Shown: positions 7,380-21,979 of the stretch, in pieces
Layout of the letters: the number at the start of each line of letters is the position of its first letter
How positions within the stretch are numbered: position 1 is the first letter of the stretch
NCBI RefSeq assembly: GCF_027257155.1
Contig: NZ_JAPWDU010000002.1
Location: 62,001 to 126,000 of the forward strand
DNA: 64,000 nucleotides
Source of the DNA: Cerasicoccus sp. TK19100
Lineage (GTDB): Bacteria; Verrucomicrobiota; Verrucomicrobiia; Opitutales; Cerasicoccaceae
Reading direction: 5' to 3'
The notes under the pieces: generated by a model
Told to the model about the DNA's origin: nothing
The model's input: the letters and a program-made list of their open reading frames with translations, nothing else
Databases searched by the model: none
Program-made: the position numbers and the translations under genes

Positions 7380-9596
7380 TTAAAAAAATGCGCTGCGCTT
7401 GAGCACGCTGAAGTTCAATGCGGCAACTTCCTGCTCGCACGCGCGAGCAAAGGTGGCGACTTCGCGGTAGCGCCGCACCAGGCTCAGGAAATTACCGAGC
7501 TGCTCGTTGTTTAAGTTCCTCGTCGCGTGCTCGACGCGGAGGAGTTTGGTCAGGCGTTTTTCCAGATTGATCCGGGCCTCGCGAAGGTTGTCATCGGTGC
7601 TGCTATATGCCGTTTGCTGAAAAGCTTCGCCGCAGCGTTGGAAGATGTCGGCCACCGCATGATCCATGGCTTGTAGCTCGGGGCGGAGGTGATCCAGAGA
7701 ATTACGCTCCAGGTCACGCGCATTGGCCTGAGCCATGCCGCGCAGTGCAAAAGAGATGGCCTGCACTTGCAGGTAAACCTGAGTCAGCGCGTCTTTGTCT
7801 TTCTCCTCTCGATTGCGGAAACCAATTTGCCCGAGCCAATCGAACGTCTTCGCGGGCATACCTTCGATGTTGGCCAGATCGTGCTCCTGCGCGCGTTTGG
7901 CGGGCTCGGACTGCTGCACGGTGATGCGCTGATCCTGCTCACGCATGAACTGGCTGGCCTGCTGGAAGAAGGCGCTGAGCTGGCGGCAAAACTCCTGCTC
8001 CGGCAGCACGGGCCAGATGAGCCGGTGCACCAACGCGGCGACAAACACCCCCAGCAAGATGCCGAGAAAACGGTCCACACCGGCTTCGAGGTCCACGCTT
8101 TGCTGCGCGGAAATGGTGGTCATCAGCAGAAAAGCCAATTGCGCCTGAAAGCCCGCATAGGCGTATTTTACAGGTCCGTTGTTGATCCAGGAAAAGAAAG
8201 CAAAGATGAAAAACAGCGGCACGCAATAGCCGTAATAGGTGGCAAAGTTGGGCTCGATAAAGGCAAGCGTGAGCGCGCCAAATAACCCACCGAGCATGCA
8301 GCCTCCTAGGCGCAGCATGGACTTCTGGTTGCTGGCGACAGCGGAGACCTGCATCACGATCGCGCAGGTCAGGAACGAGGTGACGCCCGACGGCCACTGC
8401 AGCCAGAGGTAAAGATAGAGCGCGATCAAGCTCGCGATGCCGACCTTGAGGCAGTGGTGGACGCGTAGTTTGCTCAGTCCCCAGCCGGGTTTTTTCTCTT
8501 TGACGCGGGTGGGGAGCTGCTTGACCTCTTTGCCGCCGTAGATGGCGCGGTCGGCCTGCGCCAGGCGAATCAACGAGTCGTGCAGCGAATCGAGGTCGCC
8601 CATGTAGGCGTAAAAGTTCGTGGCGTCGTCGACAGGGTAAGTCATCGAGACGCCCTCACGGCGCAGCACGATGACTTTTTCGCGCAGCCGCTCCCGGGCG
8701 TCATGCACGCGCTGCAAGCGGCGTGCGGGTTCGTCCCGCTGCAAGTCTTCGACTATTTGCAGCAAGTCTGCCTGAAGCGCACTCACGTAATCCCGCAATT
8801 CGTCCTGCAGCTCCTTTTGAAATTCGCGTGGTGTTTCGCTAGCGGAGGCACGCATCACCGTCACGATCGCTACGTAGATTTGCCGAATCTCGCGGATAAA
8901 TTCCTCCATCGCGTGCTTGTGGTGATGGATGCGGCTGCTGTCCTTGATTGCCGATTGATAGAGGCTCACCAGCGCGGGAAATTGTGTGGCGATTTTTTTG
9001 ATGCGCTTTTCGAGGTCGGCGGGCAGCTGGGCACCCGCCTGGTAGTGCTCGACCGCGAGCGAGAGCAGGCCCTGGCAATCTTTCAACGTGTCGGAGGCCT
9101 TGAAGCGAAAGGCGTTGGACGCGCGCTGGGGGAAGATCAGGTTATTCACCGCTAGCGCGACAACGACGCCCAGGCAGACTTCCAGCGTGCGAAACAGCAC
9201 GAGATGCCAGAGCTCTCCGGGGTTCACAATCGTCGTGCCCACGATGATACAGAGCGTGATGCCGCCGAGGATGAAAAAATACGGGTAGGTTGTTCCCGTG
9301 GCTCCATAGCCAAACAACGACAGGATCACGAACAGCGCGATGCTCATCAACACCTGGTCTTGCTCGAAAAAGCCAGTCAGTAAATACGCCAGGATGCCGG
9401 CCGCGAGGGTGCCGAGTATGCGCAGGATGGATTTCTCAATCGCCGCGCCGACGTAGGGCAAAAACGTGATGAAGACCGTGATCCCGGTCCAGTAAGGGCG
9501 CTCCCAGTTGAGCTTCATCGCGATGCCGAGAGCGATCACCACCGCGAGCGCCGTTTTAAAGGCAGTCAGCAATCGCAGTTGGTTCGCAGTGAGCAT
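7380..9596 (-). CDS. FUSC-family efflux protein (AaeB/YccS-like)
   Basis: FUSC proteins are inner-membrane transporters, often part of aromatic-acid efflux systems. The 738-residue product has the duplicated layout of that family. A hydrophobic block at about 10-170 is followed by a long helical cytoplasmic stretch, then a second hydrophobic block at about 385-510 and a soluble C-terminal tail. It is divergent, across 62 bases, from a DUF1656 gene and a membrane fusion protein, which are the AaeX and AaeA partners in E. coli. Here the set is split into divergent units rather than one operon. The substrate is unknown. Confidence 0.8.
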   Translation of the reverse strand: MLTANQLRLLTAFKTALAVVIALGIAMKLNWERPYWTGITVFITFLPYVGAAIEKSILRILGTLAAGILAYLLTGFFEQDQVLMSIALFVILSLFGYGATGTTYPYFFILGGITLCIIVGTTIVNPGELWHLVLFRTLEVCLGVVVALAVNNLIFPQRASNAFRFKASDTLKDCQGLLSLAVEHYQAGAQLPADLEKRIKKIATQFPALVSLYQSAIKDSSRIHHHKHAMEEFIREIRQIYVAIVTVMRASASETPREFQKELQDELRDYVSALQADLLQIVEDLQRDEPARRLQRVHDARERLREKVIVLRREGVSMTYPVDDATNFYAYMGDLDSLHDSLIRLAQADRAIYGGKEVKQLPTRVKEKKPGWGLSKLRVHHCLKVGIASLIALYLYLWLQWPSGVTSFLTCAIVMQVSAVASNQKSMLRLGGCMLGGLFGALTLAFIEPNFATYYGYCVPLFFIFAFFSWINNGPVKYAYAGFQAQLAFLLMTTISAQQSVDLEAGVDRFLGILLGVFVAALVHRLIWPVLPEQEFCRQLSAFFQQASQFMREQDQRITVQQSEPAKRAQEHDLANIEGMPAKTFDWLGQIGFRNREEKDKDALTQVYLQVQAISFALRGMAQANARDLERNSLDHLRPELQAMDHAVADIFQRCGEAFQQTAYSSTDDNLREARINLEKRLTKLLRVEHATRNLNNEQLGNFLSLVRRYREVATFARACEQEVAALNFSVLKRSAFF

Positions 9597-9658: not shown

Positions 9659-9949
9659 ATGATTGGAGAGCTGCGAGCATTAAGTGATGTGACGGTCTGC
9701 CGCTGGCTGCCAGAAGGCATGTTTGCTCTGCTTGGCGATTGGTCGCTGAATCCGGAGATCGACGCGCTCGGCTTCTACCTGCCGTTTTCAATGATCGTGG
9801 TGGTGCTCGGGTTTTCCCTGGCCTGGGTGCTGGCCTGGGCGATGGACCTGGTCGGTTTAACGCGCTTCGTTTGGCACCCGCCGTTGTTTCTCTTTGCGAT
9901 GATGGTGGGCTGTAGTTCGGGGCTGGCCTTGCTCCTGTTTCCCCGATGA
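9659..9949 (+). CDS. DUF1656-family small membrane protein (AaeX-like)
   Basis: This 96-residue protein has two clear membrane segments (about 41-63 and 73-93) separated by a short loop containing TRFVWHPPLF, which suits the DUF1656 family found beside aae-type pumps. The usual AaeX is about 65-70 residues, so the first 30 residues here (before the EIDALGFYLP stretch) are an extension. An internal start is possible but no better one is visible. The stop overlaps the next ATG (ATGA), so it is translationally coupled to the membrane fusion protein. Confidence 0.7.
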   Translation: MIGELRALSDVTVCRWLPEGMFALLGDWSLNPEIDALGFYLPFSMIVVVLGFSLAWVLAWAMDLVGLTRFVWHPPLFLFAMMVGCSSGLALLLFPR

Positions 9950-11691
9950 TGAAGAAACTGCTGAAAATCTTGATCACGCTGATCGCAGTCGCGGTGGCTA
10001 CCTACGCCACGTGGCGCTTCTACCAGGAATACGAGAAGCATCCCTGGACACGTGATGGGCAGGTGCGGGCCTACGTTGTGGGAATTGCCGCGCGGGTGGA
10101 TGGCCCGATGGTCGCCGTGAACGTGAAGGACAACCAATGGGTCGAGGAGGGCGCGCCGCTGTTTCAAATCGACCCGACGGATTATGAGAAAGAAGTCCGC
10201 CGCGCCGAGGCTGCCTTGGAGCGCTCTAAAACGGTGGCCGCCAACTTGAAGATGGAGGTCGAGCGTCGGCGTGGACTGGTGTCGCAGGAGTTAATTTCGC
10301 AGGAGATTTTTCAGGACTACGAAGCGAAATACCTCGAGGCCGTGGCTGATATCGCCGTGGACGAGGCCGAGCTGGAGTTGGCGCGCCTCAACCTGAGCTA
10401 TACCAAGGTCAACGCCCCCGTCAGCGGCTACATCACGAATCTGGAGGTCACCGTGGGCTCTTACGTGACCACGGGACAGCCGCTCATGGCGCTGGTCGAC
10501 GCCGATTCGTTCTGGATCTCCGCCTATTTCCGCGAGACCGATCTGCACGGCATCAAGGAGGGCGACCGTGTGCGCATTGTGATGATGGGCGACTTTTTCG
10601 AGCCGTTCCCCGGCGTGGTGGAGAGCATCAGTTGGGGCATTTTCCGCGAGGATGGTGCAATCAACCAAAACACCCAGCTGCCCATGGTAAAGCCGACGGT
10701 GGACTGGGTGCGCTTGGCGCAGCGTTTTCCGGTGCGCATTAAGCCGCTCGAGTTACCCGACGATATCCAACTGCGCGTCGGGCAAACGGTGTCCGTTCTG
10801 ATTGAGCCTATCGATGAGAAATCAGCGCCGCCGCAAGCCGCCCAACCAACTGCCGGCTACCCGAAGACGCTCACCGATGGTCGCGGCGACCGCGTGACGG
10901 TTAAGGCGCAGCCGAAACGCGTCATCAGCCTGGCACCGAGCACCACGCAGTGGATGCGCCGCATGGGCCTGGAGTCGGCGTTGATCGGGGTTACCGAGCA
11001 TTGCGAGGTCAGCGATGAACAAGCGGGCATTCAGCGTTACCCCGTTTATCCGTCCCCGAATTTCGAGAGTGTGCTTGGTGCGAATGCGGACCTGATCATT
11101 ACGGCCGACATCGCCAAAGACAGCGATGTGCAGCGCCTGCGCGACCTCGGACAAACCGTGCTCGTGCTCAACAATGATGGCTACGATGGCATTTTGCGTG
11201 ATGGGCAAACGCTGGCCGCAGCAATGGGCAGTGAGGCCGACGCGCAAGAGGTGCTGGCGCAACTTCAGGCCGACCGTGAGGCCGTGCTAGCCTCGGTGCA
11301 GAACCGGAACCTCTCGCCTAAGGCCTTGATCGCGCTAAGCCCGAAATTGGACTACGTTGCTGGCCCGGGGAGCTACCCCGATAGCTTGCTTGGCTTGGCC
11401 GGTGCGCAAAATGTTGCCGCCGATGCCGGTGCGCCGTGGCCATTGCTCAACCGTGAATCCGTGGTCCAAGCCGATCCGGATGTGATCATCGTGTCGCAGG
11501 ATTTATCAGACGGCGAGGAGGCGGTTCGCATGCGCGTGCTCGACACCTTGAGCGAGGACCCGGTGTGGCAAAATTTGCGCGCCGTAAAAACGGGCAGGGT
11601 GGTCGTCGTAGACTCAAAATTGATGAATGTTCCCGGCCCGCGCATTGGCGAGGCGCTCAAGGCGGTGCATGCGGCCGTGGGCGAAAATTAG
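9946..11691 (+). CDS. HlyD/AaeA-type membrane fusion protein fused to a BtuF-like substrate-binding domain
   Basis: The 581-residue product joins two families in one frame. Residues 1-285 are an inner-membrane-anchored efflux adaptor: one N-terminal membrane helix, HPWTRDGQVRA, a lipoyl half-motif, an alpha-helical hairpin (about 85-150), NAPVSGYITNLEVTVGSYV, and a beta-barrel. After a Pro/Ala/Gln linker (about 290-305), residues 306-581 resemble class III periplasmic binding proteins of the BtuF/FhuD type: GDRVTVKAQPKRVISLAPS, YPSPNFESVLGANADLII, and a long central helix. No BtuCD-type permease/ATPase or TonB receptor is nearby. It overlaps the DUF1656 stop by 4 bases, and its own stop overlaps the convergent permease by 4. 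Both family calls are strong. The joint role is inference. Confidence 0.85.
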   Translation: MMKKLLKILITLIAVAVATYATWRFYQEYEKHPWTRDGQVRAYVVGIAARVDGPMVAVNVKDNQWVEEGAPLFQIDPTDYEKEVRRAEAALERSKTVAANLKMEVERRRGLVSQELISQEIFQDYEAKYLEAVADIAVDEAELELARLNLSYTKVNAPVSGYITNLEVTVGSYVTTGQPLMALVDADSFWISAYFRETDLHGIKEGDRVRIVMMGDFFEPFPGVVESISWGIFREDGAINQNTQLPMVKPTVDWVRLAQRFPVRIKPLELPDDIQLRVGQTVSVLIEPIDEKSAPPQAAQPTAGYPKTLTDGRGDRVTVKAQPKRVISLAPSTTQWMRRMGLESALIGVTEHCEVSDEQAGIQRYPVYPSPNFESVLGANADLIITADIAKDSDVQRLRDLGQTVLVLNNDGYDGILRDGQTLAAAMGSEADAQEVLAQLQADREAVLASVQNRNLSPKALIALSPKLDYVAGPGSYPDSLLGLAGAQNVAADAGAPWPLLNRESVVQADPDVIIVSQDLSDGEEAVRMRVLDTLSEDPVWQNLRAVKTGRVVVVDSKLMNVPGPRIGEALKAVHAAVGEN

Positions 11692-12743
11692 CCTTTGGGG
11701 TTGTCCACCTCTTTTGACGGGGGGACGGTATCGGACATAAGATAGGCGATGCCTTTGGTCTTTTCGCTGGATTCGAGCGCGACCTTGATCGCCATCGTGA
11801 GCGGCACCGATAAGAGCATGCCGACCGGCCCCAGAATCCATGCCCAGAGAAACAGCGTGACGATGATGATCATCGGCGAGAGGCCGAGCCCCTTGCCCAT
11901 GTAGCGCGGCTCCAGGACGTTGCTCACGCCGACATTGATCGCGACATAGCCCACGGTGACGATTGCCGCATCACCCACGCCATGCAGGACCAGCGCCAGC
12001 AGGATGCCGGGAATCGAGGCGATGATCGAGCCGATGCTGGGCACGAAGTTAAACAGAAATGCGAGCACACCGAGCAGGACCGGGTAGTCGACCTTCATAA
12101 TGAAGAGCAGGATCGAAACCAGGGTGCCGGTCAGCAGGCTCATCACGGCCTTCATGCCCATGTATTGCCGCACGTTGGTCACGATTTCGAGAAGATCGTC
12201 CCAGCGGTCATCGGTCATGCCGGGCAGGTGCCGGATTTTGTCTGGCAACCGCGCGGCCTCCATCAGGATAAAAATCGCAATCAGGATGATGATGAAGGCA
12301 TTGGACAGCAGCACGCTGACGGATTTTAGCAAATTTGCCGTCTGCGCAAAGAGGGCGCGGGTATCGAGCGTTTTGGCCACGAGGTCTTCTTCGACTTCGA
12401 CGCCGCGATCTTCCAGCCACGCGACGCCATTGTTTATCTGGCTGGATAGCTCGCGCTGATACTTATTCAGGTTGCCCGCAAAATCATTGACCGCGTTGGT
12501 AAAGAAGCTGGCGGCAAACATGCCCGTGCCCAGCATGCCCAGGATCAAGACGATCAATGCCGCCCATGAAGGTGCTCCCTTGCGTTGAAGCCAAAAATAG
12601 ATCGGTGCAATGAGAATCACCACAAACACCGCCAGCAAAAATAGCACCACGATTGAGGCAGCTGCGCGCATGCCAGCGATGATCACCACAATCGCGGCCA
12701 CTCCCAGGAGCGCATTCAAAGCAGTTGGGCGGATACTCGGCAT
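11688..12743 (-). CDS. AI-2E/PerM-family transporter
   Basis: This 351-residue multi-pass membrane protein has the family shape: two N-terminal helix pairs (about 10-45 and 60-85), a soluble helical region (about 90-150), and a C-terminal bundle with the typical segments FLFNFVPSIGSIIASIPGIL and LEPRYMGKGLGLSPMIIIV. Members export small molecules or act as antiporters, and substrate cannot be predicted from sequence. It lies 51 bases downstream of hisF on the same strand. Its stop overlaps the stop of the convergent fusion gene by 4 bases. Confidence 0.9.
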   Translation of the reverse strand: MPSIRPTALNALLGVAAIVVIIAGMRAAASIVVLFLLAVFVVILIAPIYFWLQRKGAPSWAALIVLILGMLGTGMFAASFFTNAVNDFAGNLNKYQRELSSQINNGVAWLEDRGVEVEEDLVAKTLDTRALFAQTANLLKSVSVLLSNAFIIILIAIFILMEAARLPDKIRHLPGMTDDRWDDLLEIVTNVRQYMGMKAVMSLLTGTLVSILLFIMKVDYPVLLGVLAFLFNFVPSIGSIIASIPGILLALVLHGVGDAAIVTVGYVAINVGVSNVLEPRYMGKGLGLSPMIIIVTLFLWAWILGPVGMLLSVPLTMAIKVALESSEKTKGIAYLMSDTVPPSKEVDNPKG

Positions 12744-16853: not shown

Positions 16854-18077
16854 CTATTCGTAGCGCAAGGCGTCGATGACGGGTAGGCGGGCGGCCTTGA
16901 TCGCCGGGAAGACCCCCGACAAAAAGCCAACGACGACGCTAAACATGAAGCCCCAGCCCATGGCGCGCATCGACAGGGCGACGTGCCCCTTGTCCGCGGG
17001 AATAAAGCCGCGCAACAGCTCCACGAGCCCCACGCTGGCAATGATCCCGATAAAACCGCCAATGATGCTGATGATCAACGCCTCGGCGACAAATTGGATG
17101 AAAATATCACTGCCTTTGGCACCGACTGCCTTGCGGATGCCGATCTCACGAATGCGCTGCGAAATGGATGCGAGCATGACGTTGGCAATGCCGATACCGC
17201 CAACGAGTAGTGTGATCGCCGCCACGCCGCCGAGTGAATAAACAAAGGATCGCTCTAGCTCCTGGAAGTCTTCCAGCTCCTTCTCGCGGGTCTCAACGGC
17301 AAAGTCTTGAATACCGCGGTGCGTGCTCAGCAGCGTCCGTTCGATTTGGTCGCTCAGTTCGGGGATGTCCTCCATGGTGGCGGCTTGGACGCCCAAGTCG
17401 TTAATCGTGTCGTCATCAGGGTCCGCGAAGTAATGGATGGCCGTCGAAATGGGAATGAACGTCACGCGGGAGCGACTCCACGAATCGGCCTCATCCGGCT
17501 CGATGACACCGATGATGGTAAACACGATGCCGCGTGTGGAAACATTTTGACCCACTGCGTCCGCAGGGTTTCCGAAGAGACGGCTGGCAGTGCGCTCGGA
17601 GAGCACCATGACGCGGTTTTTCTGAACGACGTCCCAGTCTGAAATGGCGCGGCCGCCTTCCTGAATGTAAAATCGCTCGATTTCAAAGGTCTCCGGTGTG
17701 GTGCCGCGAATGCGCGACCACTCGCGCTTGGTTTCGCTTTGCAGGGGGCTCCAGTTGATGTTTTTCTCGGCGGAGATGCGCCGCGCATTGGGCAAGGAGG
17801 CCTGCAGCGCGTAATAGTCCTTCATTGTGCGCTTGGGGGAGCGGTGGGCGAAGGGCCGCTGATTGATGGGGGGCTCCGCTTCCTCAATTTCCATTTTCTC
17901 GATGCCACCGGTGGCCTCAAAGGTCTTGCGAAAGCCGGACATCATGCCCTCGACGACGCCGACCATCGCCACCAGCGCGGCCACGCCGAGGATGATGCCG
18001 ATCATCGAGAGCAGGCTGCGGAATTTGTGCGAGCTGATCTCGCGCACCCCGTGGACAATGGCGCTGGCGAGTATCAT
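16854..18077 (-). CDS. ABC transporter permease, MacB/FtsX type
   Basis: The 407-residue product has the MacB-family permease layout: a first membrane helix with KFRSLLSMIGIILGVAALVAM, a large periplasmic domain (about 60-275), and three C-terminal membrane helices, with IGIRKAVGAKGSDIFIQFV in the loop after the second helix. It is the permease alone; the ATPase is a separate gene upstream, overlapping by ATGA. With the adaptor and TolC genes it forms a complete tripartite export operon (TolC, adaptor, ATPase, permease, in transcription order). The substrate cannot be told. Confidence 0.9.
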   Translation of the reverse strand: MILASAIVHGVREISSHKFRSLLSMIGIILGVAALVAMVGVVEGMMSGFRKTFEATGGIEKMEIEEAEPPINQRPFAHRSPKRTMKDYYALQASLPNARRISAEKNINWSPLQSETKREWSRIRGTTPETFEIERFYIQEGGRAISDWDVVQKNRVMVLSERTASRLFGNPADAVGQNVSTRGIVFTIIGVIEPDEADSWSRSRVTFIPISTAIHYFADPDDDTINDLGVQAATMEDIPELSDQIERTLLSTHRGIQDFAVETREKELEDFQELERSFVYSLGGVAAITLLVGGIGIANVMLASISQRIREIGIRKAVGAKGSDIFIQFVAEALIISIIGGFIGIIASVGLVELLRGFIPADKGHVALSMRAMGWGFMFSVVVGFLSGVFPAIKAARLPVIDALRYE

Positions 18078-18790
18078 GATTTCACGCTCCCGGTTTGGTC
18101 TTCGTCCTTGGTGGGGCCGTCTTCCGTGCCGACCAAGTGGCCGTCGCGCACGAGGATAATGGACCGCGCGTGCTGGGCGACCTCCAGGTCGTGGGTGACG
18201 AGGATCAGTGTTTGCCCTTCATCCACGAGTGAGTCGAAAAGCTTCATGACGCGCTCGACGTTTTTGGTGTCGAGGTTGCCCGTAGGTTCGTCGGCCAGGA
18301 TGAGCTTGGGCTCGTTGACCAGTGCGCGGGCGATGGCCACGCGCTGACGCTCACCGCCGGAGAGCTGGCCTGGGCGGTGGCCGACGCGGTGAGACATGCC
18401 CACGCGGTCGAGCGCATCCTTGGCGCGCGCGTCGCTCTTGCGGTCCTTGCGCGCGTAGTCCAGCGGGAGGCGGACGTTTTCCAGCACACTCAGCCGGGGC
18501 AGGAGGTTGAAAGTCTGGAAGACGAAGCCCAGGTGGTTCGCGCGATACCAGGCGCGCTTGGCAGCGCTCAGGCGGGATACGTCCGCGCCGTCGAAAAGCA
18601 TCTTCCCCGAGGTGGGGAAATCCATGAAGCCGAGCAAGTGCATCAGCGTGGACTTGCCGGAGCCGGAGGGGCCAAGCACCGCGGCGTACGAGCCGGCCTC
18701 GATGTCCAGCGTAACGCTGTCGAGCGCCTTCACGGTCTCGTCGCCCATCTTGTAGTGCTTGCTAATTTGCTGGAGTTCGATCAGCGCCAT
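18074..18790 (-). CDS. ABC transporter ATP-binding protein (MacB/LolD type)
   Basis: The 238-residue ATPase has Walker A GPSGSGKSTLM near 40, a Q-loop region with FVFQTFNLLPRLSVLENVRLP, the signature LSGGERQRVAIARAL, Walker B LILADEPTGNLD and the switch His in LVTHD. It is typical of the MacB/LolD branch that works as a mechanotransmitter with an FtsX-fold permease. It is separated by six bases from the adaptor gene and overlaps the permease gene by four bases. Confidence 0.93.
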   Translation of the reverse strand: MALIELQQISKHYKMGDETVKALDSVTLDIEAGSYAAVLGPSGSGKSTLMHLLGFMDFPTSGKMLFDGADVSRLSAAKRAWYRANHLGFVFQTFNLLPRLSVLENVRLPLDYARKDRKSDARAKDALDRVGMSHRVGHRPGQLSGGERQRVAIARALVNEPKLILADEPTGNLDTKNVERVMKLFDSLVDEGQTLILVTHDLEVAQHARSIILVRDGHLVGTEDGPTKDEDQTGSVKS

Positions 18791-18796
18791 GGTTTC

Positions 18797-19885
18797 TCAG
18801 GAATCCGCGGATGGGCCTTCGCCTTCGGGCATGGTCAAGCTGACGACGTCGCCCACCTTCAGGCCGCTTTTGACCTGCACATGGTGGACATCGCTCAGGC
18901 CGGTTTCGACGGGCGTTTTCTCCCACTGGTTCGCGCCCTTTTGCTTGTAGGCGACGAAGCCGTCCTTGGACTTGAAGAGCGCTGTGGGGATGACCACCGG
19001 CACGTCGTGGACTTCATCAATCGGCAAGGTGACGGTGGCGCTGATGCCGGGGCGGATGCGTTCGTCACCGGCTTCGAAGGTAACGAGCACGCGGAAAATG
19101 CGTTCGTTGCCCTCGGTTTCGGCGTAGCTGAAAATCTGCGAAACAACGCCCGAGAATTCTTCCTCCGGCAAGGCATCAAAGGTGACGCGCGCGGGCATGC
19201 CTTCAGATATCTGGTTGATGTCGAGCTCGTTGACTTTGGTGCGCACGTGCAGCTTGAGCAGGTCGTTGATCGTCATGAGCGTGGTGCCCTGGTTGACGGA
19301 TGTCGCCCCGGTGATGACTTGGCCGGGGTTCAAATCGAAGTTACCCACGACGCCCTCATGCGGTGCGCGGATGGTGGTCTTGGCCAGGTTGTCCTTAGCC
19401 TTTTCCAGACGTGCGCGGCGAACTTCCAGCTCGATCTGCATCAGGCCAAGCTCGGTCTTAGCATCGAGGAAGTCTTTTTCGTTGGTGAAGTTTTTGGCGC
19501 GCAAATCCTCAAGCCGGGCATAGTCGCGCTTGGCCTGCTCCAGGCGGAGGTCCTGGGCTTCGAAGAGGCGCTCGGCTTCTTCGAGCTCGGTTTGGCGCTC
19601 GGTTTTTTCAAGCTCCAGCAGGATCTGGCCAGCTTGCACCTTTTGGCCGTCCTTGATCAGAATATTCTCAATGCGGCCAGTGATCTCGGAGCGCACTTCG
19701 GTGGACACCACCGGCTCGACGTAGCCGCCAGCGGTGACGACGTTTTCAATCGAGCCCAGCTCGACCTCGGACGTTTGCGGCGGCTTGGGCTTGGAGTTTT
19801 CAGACTCCTGCTCCAGCCGGTCCCAGGTCCACCAACCACCGGCTGCGAGGAGGGCGAAAAAGATTAACGTGGGGATGTGTTTCAT
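18797..19885 (-). CDS. Periplasmic adaptor subunit (MacA/HlyD-like)
   Basis: The 362-residue product has an N-terminal membrane anchor (IPTLIFFALLAAGGWWTW), the lipoyl half-motifs VVSTEVRSEITGRIENILIK and TTIRAPHEGVVGNFDLNPGQ, a long coiled-coil hairpin between them, and a beta-barrel and membrane-proximal domain with TFEAGDERIRPGISATV. This is the MacA-type adaptor linking an ABC permease to TolC. Its ATG overlaps the stop of the TolC-family gene. Confidence 0.92.
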   Translation of the reverse strand: MKHIPTLIFFALLAAGGWWTWDRLEQESENSKPKPPQTSEVELGSIENVVTAGGYVEPVVSTEVRSEITGRIENILIKDGQKVQAGQILLELEKTERQTELEEAERLFEAQDLRLEQAKRDYARLEDLRAKNFTNEKDFLDAKTELGLMQIELEVRRARLEKAKDNLAKTTIRAPHEGVVGNFDLNPGQVITGATSVNQGTTLMTINDLLKLHVRTKVNELDINQISEGMPARVTFDALPEEEFSGVVSQIFSYAETEGNERIFRVLVTFEAGDERIRPGISATVTLPIDEVHDVPVVIPTALFKSKDGFVAYKQKGANQWEKTPVETGLSDVHHVQVKSGLKVGDVVSLTMPEGEGPSADS

Positions 19886-21792
19886 TGTTCGGTCAGGGCG
19901 CCTTCGTAAGTTTCGGAAAGTGCATTGGGTGATTGGCCGTAGCTCGCGGGCAGCGTCGCCGGCTCATGGTTAAAGGTGTTAAATTCGGGTGCCGGCCAGC
20001 GGTCCTGGCTGAGCGGTTTTACGGGATCGGGCGGCGTTTGCGTTTCGTTGTCGATCTCCTGCCAGTCAAACCCATGGCGCGAGAGCAGGCGCCCATCAAG
20101 GCGGGCGAGCAGCACCACGGCTTCGCGGAGGTCATACAGTGCGGCGAGGTGGCGGAGCTTGGCGTCGTCGTAGTCACGCTGCGCTTCCAACACATTGCGG
20201 AAGTTGGACAAGCCCGCATCGTAGCGTGCGCGCTCTTGCTCAAAGCTTTCCATGTTGAGCCGCAGTGAGGCGCGCGTGGTGGCCAGCCGTTCGCGCCCTG
20301 AGGCGATGGAGCGCCAGGCCAGGCGCAGACGGCGCATCAGCTCTTGTTGAATTTCTGCCAACCGGGTTTCGGCTCGATAGATGTTTCGCGTGGATGTACG
20401 CAAACGGGCTTCCTCGGCGCGCATGCCCCAGGGCATGGAGAACTCCAGGCCAACGTTCCAGTCGTAGCCGCGCGACTCGAAGGCGCTTTGATAGGAGTCT
20501 GTCGCACTTTGTTCGCGGCCCAGCACGCCACCACCGGCAAAGAGATCGAGATCGGGGAGGGTGCTGTTGTTCGCCACGCGGCGGTCGACCTCCAGTTGGT
20601 CAATCAGTTCCAACTGGATCTGGCTTTCCATGTCGCTGGCGAGGGCCCCCGTCACGCTGTCGCGAAACTCGGGCAGCATCGGGTCGTTATCGGGTAGGGG
20701 CTCGACGTCGATCGGGTTCAGTCTCTCGGAATATAAAATCCCCAGGACTGAGCGGAGCCGGTCTTCGGCATTGTCTGCGGCTTCCTGCGCGAGAATCACA
20801 TCTTCGCTGCGCGCGGCCAGTGATGCCTCGGCCTGAAGGACTTCCAAGCGGGTCGCCAGGCCCACGCGTTCACGCTCGGTATTCTCCTCTAATAAAGACT
20901 TGGCGAGACGCAGGTTGGACAAAAACAAAGCTTGGCGTTGGCGCGCCGCCGCCAGATTCCAATACGCGATCTCCACATCCGCAATCAGGTCCAGCACTTC
21001 GCGGCGGACTTCCAGGCGGCTGGCGCGCAGGCCAATTTGTGCCCGGGTAACGGAGGCCAGATTGACCGCCTCGCCAAAGCCCGCGAGCAGCGGCTGGCGC
21101 AAGGTGACGCCCAGGCGCGAAGAGAAATCCGGGTTCAACAGGGCGTTGCTGGAGTTGGTCGTGGCGCGGTTCAGGCGTGTGCCGACCGAGACCTCGGTGC
21201 CCAGCGAAAAGCGTTTGTCGACGCTGACATTGAACTGCTGGTCGGCGTTCACTGCGCGGCCGGAAATGACGCCAGCCAACGAAGTGGAGGGCGGAAACGC
21301 ATCCTCGCCCGCTGTGAGTGAGGCGTTGATCGTTGGGTCAAATGATGCCTCGGCAACCGTGATTGCATCAAGCGAAATGCCAGGGGAATAACGGGTAATG
21401 CTTAGGCCGAGATTTTTTTCAAGTGCCAGATCCACGGACTGCCGCAGCGTGAGATGCATGGGGGCGATGTCGGCGTCGATATCCATGACCAGCGGGCTTT
21501 GTCGTACGAGTTCAAGAATGTCGTAATCCGCCTCCAGGCCTTCGACGTAATCCGGATAAGATTGCGGCGATTCATTCCAGGCATCGAGCGCAGCGCGACC
21601 AAAGTCAGATGAAAAATCGGCACCAGTGGTCTCACTCTCCATCGGTGTCTCAGGAAGCGTCTCGGGCTTAAGCGGATCATCGGCAAACGCCGCATTACAC
21701 GCGCAAAAACTAACAAAAAGTGCAGGCGTGATTTTTATCCAATTTTGCCTTTTGGGGTTATGGTTGGATTGGGCGATGCGCATGGTCGCCAT
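19882..21792 (-). CDS. TolC-family outer-membrane efflux protein
   Basis: TolC-family proteins form the outer-membrane channel of tripartite pumps. From the ATG at 21792 the product has 636 residues with a signal-peptide-like start (WIKITPALFVSFCACNAAFA). Two OEP repeats follow, seen in LRQSVDLALEKNLGLSITRY, RQPLLAGFGEAVNLASVTRA and the later MPWGMRAEEARLRTSTRNIY. The frame stays open 43 codons further upstream, but those residues look unlike an export signal. An alternative ATG lies at 21783. It is the first gene of the MacAB-type operon. The C-terminal 60 residues are an extra Pro/Asn-rich tail. Confidence 0.88.
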   Translation of the reverse strand: MATMRIAQSNHNPKRQNWIKITPALFVSFCACNAAFADDPLKPETLPETPMESETTGADFSSDFGRAALDAWNESPQSYPDYVEGLEADYDILELVRQSPLVMDIDADIAPMHLTLRQSVDLALEKNLGLSITRYSPGISLDAITVAEASFDPTINASLTAGEDAFPPSTSLAGVISGRAVNADQQFNVSVDKRFSLGTEVSVGTRLNRATTNSSNALLNPDFSSRLGVTLRQPLLAGFGEAVNLASVTRAQIGLRASRLEVRREVLDLIADVEIAYWNLAAARQRQALFLSNLRLAKSLLEENTERERVGLATRLEVLQAEASLAARSEDVILAQEAADNAEDRLRSVLGILYSERLNPIDVEPLPDNDPMLPEFRDSVTGALASDMESQIQLELIDQLEVDRRVANNSTLPDLDLFAGGGVLGREQSATDSYQSAFESRGYDWNVGLEFSMPWGMRAEEARLRTSTRNIYRAETRLAEIQQELMRRLRLAWRSIASGRERLATTRASLRLNMESFEQERARYDAGLSNFRNVLEAQRDYDDAKLRHLAALYDLREAVVLLARLDGRLLSRHGFDWQEIDNETQTPPDPVKPLSQDRWPAPEFNTFNHEPATLPASYGQSPNALSETYEGALTEQ

Positions 21793-21979
21793 GCTCAAGC
21801 CGCTTTGTTGGACACGAATAATCCCCGCGGCCTGATTAACCAGGTAGGATGAAAAGCGCTCAAAGTAGGCAGAGAAAGCTGGCAGGAAAAAACGGGACAT
21901 CGAAAACAGTGAAACGGTCAAAACAATGCACGTATCACCAGAAAGCCAGCGATTTCACTGATTTTTCATCCCGAAGGAT

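Follow-up and report, generated by a model that had tools for sequence, protein, structure and literature searches.

The fusion gene and its locus

The window analyzed here is a 64,000-nucleotide stretch of the genome of Cerasicoccus sp. TK19100 (contig NZ_JAPWDU010000002.1, positions 62,001 to 126,000), and our subject is a gene within it that encodes, in a single open frame of 581 amino acids (aa) without an internal stop, an efflux-type periplasmic adaptor, a linker, and a class III substrate-binding domain (Table 1). The start of this fusion gene overlaps by ATGA the stop (at 9949) of a gene encoding a small DUF1656 membrane protein, whose true start may be the ATG at 9719, and a FUSC transporter is encoded divergently on the far side of DUF1656. 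The original prediction, made from the letters of the window alone, had claimed one uninterrupted adaptor-plus-binding-domain frame, the ATGA overlap with DUF1656 and the divergence from FUSC; all three are borne out, with the adaptor at residues 1-288 and the binding domain at 305-581.

Domain searches agree with this architecture. The adaptor part matches the barrel-sandwich (lipoyl)/HlyD families HlyD_D23 (residues 45-228), HlyD_3 (154-238) and Biotin_lipoyl_2 (PF16576, PF13437 and PF13533), all above their Pfam cut-offs, and Peripla_BP_2 (PF01497) matches residues 326-558 (E 6.6e-26, 91.6 bits against a cut-off of 27.5), so that HlyD_D23, Biotin_lipoyl_2 and Peripla_BP_2, the families anticipated by the original prediction, are all found. 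No CusF-like family appears among the Pfam matches of the fusion up to E 1, its C-terminal domain being PF01497. More specific NCBIfam models match the adaptor (MdtN, 2.8e-65, 220 bits against a cut-off of 376; AaeA, 1.9e-56, 191 against 400; EmrA type, 2.5e-46) and the C-terminal part (TIGR04281, 1.8e-43; IsdE, 3.8e-20; BtuF, 4.3e-16), each below its curated cut-off, and the BtuF model NF002894 reaches 61.5 bits against a cut-off of 234 when run on the domain alone. Among the matches listed, the cut-offs that were reached are those of the broad RND_mfp adaptor subfamily (131 against 94.9 bits) and the TroA_like helical-backbone metal receptor (40.4 against 30 bits). DUF1656 is matched by PF07869 (47.4 bits, cut-off 26.5) and falls short of the AaeX equivalog cut-off, and those of AaeB and MdtO are likewise not reached at this locus. 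Because the matches stay below the specific equivalog cut-offs, the names AaeA and BtuF are resemblances rather than assignments, and we replace the earlier label 'AaeA' with AaeA/MdtN/EmrA-like.

An AlphaFold2 model was built from seven fusion sequences (mean predicted local distance difference test score, pLDDT, 71; predicted template modeling score, pTM, 0.47). The hairpin and most of the binding domain are well predicted (pLDDT mostly 70-92 when averaged in blocks of ten residues), whereas prediction of the adaptor barrel is poor and pLDDT is low at residues 290-301, and use of the model is restricted here to the binding domain and hairpin. All 50 listed matches of modeled residues 302-581 to solved class III proteins, heme and siderophore proteins included, have Z scores of 22-26, among them E. 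coli BtuF (1n2z; Z 24.0, 243 of 245 residues, 2.5 A), ShuT (2r7a; 24.3), HutB (5khl; 24.4) and CeuE (4ino; 25.0). The class III fold of the modeled C-terminal domain is therefore secure; the ligand class is unreadable from the fold search, as BtuF, heme and siderophore proteins differ by few Z units. What had been called a domain of BtuF/FhuD type thus stands as to fold, which is that of class III at large; the fold search does not single out BtuF.

Table 1. Features of the fusion gene, its partner genes and the transporter/PF02742 fusions of related genomes (window coordinates unless a locus is given)
Feature	Position	Strand	Evidence
FUSC transporter, 738 aa, divergent partner	7380..9596	-	PF04632, 208 bits against cut-off 30.9, in two stretches
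DUF1656 (AaeX-like) small membrane protein	9659..9949	+	PF07869, E 1.8e-12, residues 33-85; upstream of fusion in 10/10
Fusion gene: adaptor, linker and class III substrate-binding domain, 581 aa	9946..11691	+	Pfam, NCBIfam, fold search; full length in 10/10 family genomes
Periplasmic adaptor part, residues 1-288, AaeA/MdtN/EmrA-like	9946..10809	+	Pfam HlyD families, NCBIfam, PDB matches EmrA, AcrA, MexA
N-terminal membrane anchor, residues 2-31	9949..10038	+	Helix 2-31 in AlphaFold2 model; hydrophobic sequence
RLS-spaced motif R107, L111, S118 at alpha-hairpin tip (helices 78-113, 119-151)	10264..10299	+	Invariant in 10/10; MexA spacing; modeled hairpin
Variable linker, residues 289-304	10810..10857	+	Low identity, variable length, low pLDDT at 290-301
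Class III substrate-binding domain, residues 305-581	10858..11688	+	PF01497; model matches BtuF, ShuT, CeuE and others, Z 22-26
Cys353, adjoining BtuF Tyr50 position	11002..11004	+	Cys in 10/10 fusions, 25/29 standalone relatives
Glu374, aligned to E. coli BtuF Glu72 (permease-docking glutamate)	11065..11067	+	Glu in 10/10 fusions
Trp498, aligned to BtuF cobalamin-contacting Trp196	11437..11439	+	Trp in 10/10 fusions, 28/29 standalone relatives, 0/10 same-genome heme-type proteins
Glu504, aligned to BtuF permease-docking Glu202	11455..11457	+	Glu in 10/10 fusions
ABC-3 permease/PF02742 fusions	L177 1261-2667; L173 1282-2667; L181 922-2256		

Conservation and distribution

The family to which the window belongs was sampled as 10 genomes from 4 genera, four Cerasicoccus species among them. 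The fusion is one open frame of 581 to 681 aa in every one of these genomes (the length in G002 being taken as aligned, since a longer open reading frame extends upstream there). No stop or frameshift lies at the junction, and read-through in all ten makes it very unlikely that a frameshift, a lost stop codon or faulty assembly produced the fusion. DUF1656 lies directly upstream of the fusion in 10/10. A full-length FUSC homolog is likewise present in each genome, divergently adjacent to the fusion in nine; in G006 it is elsewhere in the genome, full length, with 37% identity over residues 1-738. The survey of related genomes that the original prediction had proposed thus finds fusion, DUF1656 and FUSC retained together.

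Beyond the family we find no sign of horizontal spread in phylum, order or adaptor-locus searches. Of 387 phylum genomes searched, 5 belong to the family; in the remaining 382 no full-length fusion is found at E 1e-30, with only 3 candidates scored per genome. The order search covered 273 genomes, 263 of them outside the family; a binding-domain match at E 1e-12 occurs in 58 of the 263, and no listed frame exceeds 414 aa. At the nearest non-family adaptor loci (81, being 74 non-family loci among the best 80 of 252 plus 7 further; adaptor frames of 263-365 aa from the match start) a binding protein is present in none, in a search by adaptor patterns only, which would overlook any fusion whose adaptor differs greatly from these. 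Two of the 81 (L253 and L254, in non-family Verrucomicrobiota) have an unfused and likewise divergent FUSC/DUF1656/adaptor layout, which probably represents the ancestral state before the binding domain was gained.

Both halves of the protein look functional in alignment. Over the ten fusions the adaptor has 119 invariant columns, including R107, L111 and S118, whose spacing is identical to that of R119, L123 and S130 in MexA; this RLS motif of adaptors is reported to dock the outer-membrane channel (PMC4446572). The binding domain has 44 invariant columns, including P331, S332, C353, A472-G473, W498 and P563-G564-P565, positions that by analogy with BtuF would line the cleft. Mean pairwise identity is 67% in the adaptor, 45% in the binding domain and 18% in the linker, and the P288-D311 stretch spans 16 to 61 residues. 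For the binding domain the ratio of nonsynonymous to synonymous substitution rates (dN/dS) comes to 0.084-0.096 in those three of six Cerasicoccus pairs that allowed dS to be estimated, a rough figure as dS is near saturation.

The fusions also differ at their C-terminal ends. Three of the four fusions of genus g3 (L038, L039, L040) carry a Pro/Ala/Glu-rich tail extending 74 to 111 residues past the residue-575 column, and the other seven extend only 6 to 13 residues past it.

Origin and relatives of the binding domain

Leaving E. coli BtuF out of the count, 98% of 200 bootstrap trees unite the fused domains in a single group; in the best tree their branch has support 58/94, with the long E. 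coli BtuF row included in the branch. Branching within the group follows genera, and the whole is consistent with a single origin as judged from these alignments. The possibility that the domain was copied from an importer receptor within its own genome was considered and rejected, because the ten standalone binding proteins of the same family genomes group separately (100/100).

The closest relatives outside the family are standalone binding proteins of the order, which we compared as loci from 29 genomes, mostly the best-scoring among the 58 outside the family that have a binding-domain match; the best of them have 28-34% identity to the fused domain. Genes of B12-type uptake (a TonB receptor or DUF4465) lie beside 16 of the 29. 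A TonB receptor resembling three reference receptors occurs in 15 loci (the references were taken from three of these, which therefore match themselves); two of the references score best with the B12 receptor model TIGR01779 (233 and 232 bits, short of its cut-off of 599.7) and the third with a siderophore receptor model. A DUF4465 gene occurs in 8 loci (references taken from L042, one of the eight), and DUF4465 proteins, including one from Coraliomargarita akajimensis, are reported to bind vitamin B12 (PMC13398666). FecCD/BtuC-like genes are found in six loci, and nine, some on short contigs, have no TonB, DUF4465 or FecCD/BtuC-like marker. The locus with the best E-value outside the family, L042, contains two cobalamin riboswitches (7485-7682 and 8833-9014), each upstream of one of its two DUF4465 genes; it is the only positive at gathering score among the 18 of 29 relatives' loci that were scanned, the 17 others having none. 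No adaptor, FUSC or DUF1656 match is present at any of the 29.

Several close standalone relatives begin, by eye, with a membrane-spanning segment (e.g. L043, L044) and others with a lipobox-like Cys; a membrane-tethered form of the binding protein may therefore predate the fusion. In L043 (6972-9962) and L044 (2624-5664) such membrane-segment binding proteins are encoded divergently from TonB receptors that score like B12 receptors, and no BtuCD match is present within either retrieved locus.

Cleft and docking residues

The residues of E. coli BtuF reported to bind cobalamin are Y50, W66, F162, F168 and W196 (PMC5662663). At the corresponding positions the ten fusions have H5/F3/Y2 (50), Y5/F4/H1 (66), L5/Y4/T1 (162), Y8/F2 (168) and W10 (196), so that, counting His, four of the five are aromatic in all ten fusions and the F162 position in four only. 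The ten same-genome standalone proteins have S10 at 50, I10 at 66, L5/M4/I1 at 162, nothing aromatic at 168, and F6/Y4 at 196. Among the 29 relatives, an aromatic residue or His is found 27 times at position 50, twice at 66, 21 times at 162, 19 times at 168 and 28 times at 196. Because these counts differ between fusions and relatives, the aligned fusion cleft is not simply a copy of the relatives' cleft.

The glutamates E374 and E504 correspond to the pair with which BtuF docks its permease (PMC3741162, in which Glu72 of the E. coli sequence appears as Glu74). They are non-discriminating, because every one of the 50 sequences compared has them.

A corrinoid ligand had been among the suggestions of the original prediction, and for the fused domain the link is indirect and its support mixed: it is favored by the B12-type genes beside 16 of 29 relatives and disfavored by the single riboswitch-bearing locus among 18, and of the five cobalamin-contacting positions four fit and F162 does so in four fusions only.

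Importers and B12 supply in the family genomes

Each of the 10 family genomes has one strong FecCD permease (E <1e-80), which adjoins a standalone binding protein in nine and is on a separate contig from it in G007. Apart from the fusion, no class III match besides these standalone proteins occurs in any of the genomes, and they are heme-type where checked. Against solved structures, that of G004 matches ShuT (2e-36) and HmuT (4e-33) far ahead of the best B12 protein (6e-14), and that of G000 matches RhuT (6e-37; best B12 protein 1.5e-11). HemS/ChuX genes lie beside the standalone protein in both of these genomes, and the ATPase in the window's own genome exceeds the cut-off of the heme-ATPase model; the permease model scores name no substrate. 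On the standalone proteins all NCBIfam matches fall below cut-off, with BtuF slightly ahead of IsdE, and we rejected an assignment as BtuF in view of the heme ATPase model and the solved-structure matches. In the genomes checked, then, the sole strong FecCD importer appears to serve heme and to have a binding protein to itself, and the fused domain is therefore without an evident dedicated importer. The absence of importer genes nearby, already noted in the window by the original prediction, extends to all 10 family genomes: in none of them does a FecCD match (E 0.001) lie closer to the fusion than about 70 kb.

Weaker FecCD matches also occur in the family genomes, and many, the highest at 52.6 bits, exceed the cut-off of that family. 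We considered these as further FecCD permeases; the three loci checked (in G000, G007 and G004) encode ABC-3 permeases. In three family genomes an ABC-3 metal permease is itself fused to an iron-dependent-repressor C-terminal domain (PF02742; Table 1), which by its predicted domains combines transport with metal sensing in one protein.

The B12-dependent MetH activation domain is encoded in 10/10 family genomes and CbiC in 0/10; the family therefore appears, from gene content, to need cobamides without synthesizing the ring. Outer-membrane genes of B12 type (a BtuB-like receptor, DUF4465) were not found in 8/10 family genomes. Because these genes were found in only two genomes and the fusion is kept in ten, the role of the fusion does not depend on this way of taking up B12, and it may have switched to another ligand. 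Cobalamin riboswitches give no further link: at gathering score none is present in the window or in fusion loci L033, L036, L037 and L038, nor is one present at the DUF4465 loci of G004 and G006 (L231, L232), and in whole-genome searches, which alone cover fusion loci L034, L035 and L039-L041, no family member has a match over cut-off, with three weak matches in one genus.

Proposed mechanism and alternatives

We tentatively read the protein as the adaptor of a FUSC/DUF1656 export pump that carries a tethered periplasmic capture domain for a large ligand of the corrinoid, heme or metal-chelate class, a reading to which we give a little less than an even chance. It builds on what the sequences display directly, namely the fusion and its conservation, an intact adaptor with its docking motif, the co-retention of FUSC and DUF1656, and the conserved cleft positions. 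A class III ligand-binding domain of the type serving ATP-binding cassette (ABC) importers would have been joined to the adaptor, probably once, in the family ancestor. About six adaptors would ring the transporter, as suggested by solved EmrA structures (8zal, 8zar; six chains each) and general knowledge of such adaptors, and the tethered binding domains would then form a crown at the periplasmic face of the inner membrane. Such a crown could capture its ligand and raise its concentration at the pump, which would expel it or recycle it to the outside, the arrangement amounting to a covalent form of hand-over from binding protein to pump. In its fullest form, an export pump has captured an importer receptor, and some six tethered class III receptors feed a corrinoid-, heme- or metal-chelate-like ligand outward; this stronger version we regard as doubtful. 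The original prediction of capture by an Aae-type pump accordingly holds up in part: a working adaptor with a tethered domain is supported by conservation of the whole arrangement, and ligand and direction are predictions.

This reading must be tempered by several observations that weigh against it. Ligand and transport direction are predictions, and physical contact of the fusion with FUSC is predicted from gene neighborhood. The docking glutamates are retained in every fusion, as in an importer receptor, and the binding domain diverges faster than the adaptor. It would also be odd for a B12-requiring cell to export the likely ligand of the relatives, a corrinoid nutrient.

Some of the same observations would be expected if the domain instead feeds an ABC importer, sharing the strong FecCD permease with the heme protein or using an undetected one, while the adaptor mainly anchors or clusters it. 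This main alternative, which we consider unlikely, draws on the conserved glutamates, on the membrane-anchored versions of the binding protein seen by eye in several members of the order, on genomes that look B12-dependent without ring synthesis, and on there being only one other class III match per genome, heme-type where checked. A plain anchor, however, would have no need of a full hairpin bearing the invariant RLS motif, or of FUSC and DUF1656 being retained alongside it in every family genome; nor is this alternative helped by the lack of a FecCD match near the fusion, by the membership of the strong permease in a heme cluster in the genomes checked, or by the failure to find B12-type outer-membrane genes in most of the family. 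A regulatory role, in which ligand binding reshapes the adaptor ring and so gates assembly or activity of a pump whose substrate is different (e.g. an aromatic acid), would fit the conserved cleft positions and is in keeping with reports that adaptors can take an active part in cargo binding and pump activation (PMC4446572), but the poorly conserved linker of such variable length makes mechanical coupling less likely, and we think it rather improbable.

The fusion might, finally, be near-neutral, loss of a stop codon having once joined neighboring genes whose products remain independent or of which the second is dispensable. A tree that fits a single origin and the faster evolution of the binding domain are what this would produce. 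Yet the fusion has been neither split nor lost in ten genomes of four genera, cleft positions are invariant, dN/dS is below 0.1 in the three Cerasicoccus pairs for which it could be estimated, and the genes are not side by side outside the family, at the 81 nearest adaptor loci or at the 29 loci of relatives; we hold this explanation to be very improbable.

Other genes of the window

Opposite the 3' end of the fusion, with a 4-base overlap, lies a gene for an AI-2E family transporter (11688-12743, reverse strand), a neighbor also present at the other three Cerasicoccus loci examined. Further along on the reverse strand (16854-21921), a MacB/FtsX-like permease, an HlyD adaptor and an outer-membrane efflux protein (OEP) are encoded consecutively; the OEP (19882-21921) could also serve the fusion pump.

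Comparison with known systems

Class III binding proteins have mostly been described as receptors for import, and the periplasmic entry of substrates into FUSC pumps is poorly understood. If the capture reading is true, this would be the first FUSC pump that we know of with a built-in periplasmic receptor; the usual direction of the class III receptor fold would be reversed here, and the pump would be a candidate path by which such ligands are exported or recycled. A receptor covalently linked to an adaptor across a family would show periplasmic capture wired to efflux beyond metals, and would give substrate entry into FUSC pumps a testable starting point. It also raises the question of how corrinoids are handled in apparently B12-requiring Verrucomicrobiota, in most of which, within the family sample, standard B12 uptake genes were sought and not found. 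By title and the start of the abstract, none of the papers listed from the PMC open literature describes a binding-protein/adaptor fusion with FUSC, and by title none of them concerns vitamin B12 handling in Cerasicoccus.

With AaeA-AaeB-AaeX and MdtNOP the locus shares adaptor, FUSC transporter and DUF1656 protein encoded together; it differs in the extra domain of ~280 residues on the adaptor and in staying below the NCBIfam cut-offs of AaeA, MdtN, AaeB, MdtO and AaeX. With BtuF, HmuT and FhuD (PF01497) the fused domain has in common its fold, the docking glutamates and a partly aromatic cleft, but it resides in an efflux adaptor, has no evident importer, and does not reach the BtuF and IsdE cut-offs. 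The standalone proteins of the order that lie beside TonB receptors or DUF4465 (L043, L044, L204, L208 and others) are its closest relatives outside the family and mostly have the same cleft Cys and Trp; they are unfused, occur in B12-type uptake clusters, and are aromatic at the BtuF W66 position in only 2 of 29 cases, as against all ten fusions (His counted).

Two export systems offer functional parallels. In pyoverdine recycling, the periplasmic binding protein FpvF is reported to interact with PvdT of the PvdRT-OpmQ export pump and is proposed to bring it apo-pyoverdine (PMC6954188), a contact between binding protein and exporter with proposed ligand delivery much like that suggested here; those are separate proteins and a different type of pump, whereas the fusion is covalent, on the adaptor, and beside a FUSC pump. 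Among SilB/CusB adaptors, SilB carries a C-terminal CusF-like metal-binding domain, a ligand-binding module that, like the one fused here, also exists free, and for which a funnel-like role is described (PMC4446572). The SilB/CusB pump is of the resistance-nodulation-division (RND) heavy-metal type with a small metal-binding beta-barrel, whereas the fusion combines a FUSC pump with a class III fold. An adaptor with a C-terminal ligand-binding module is thus of a known kind; the pairing of a class III receptor with a FUSC adaptor is the part for which the papers listed gave no description.

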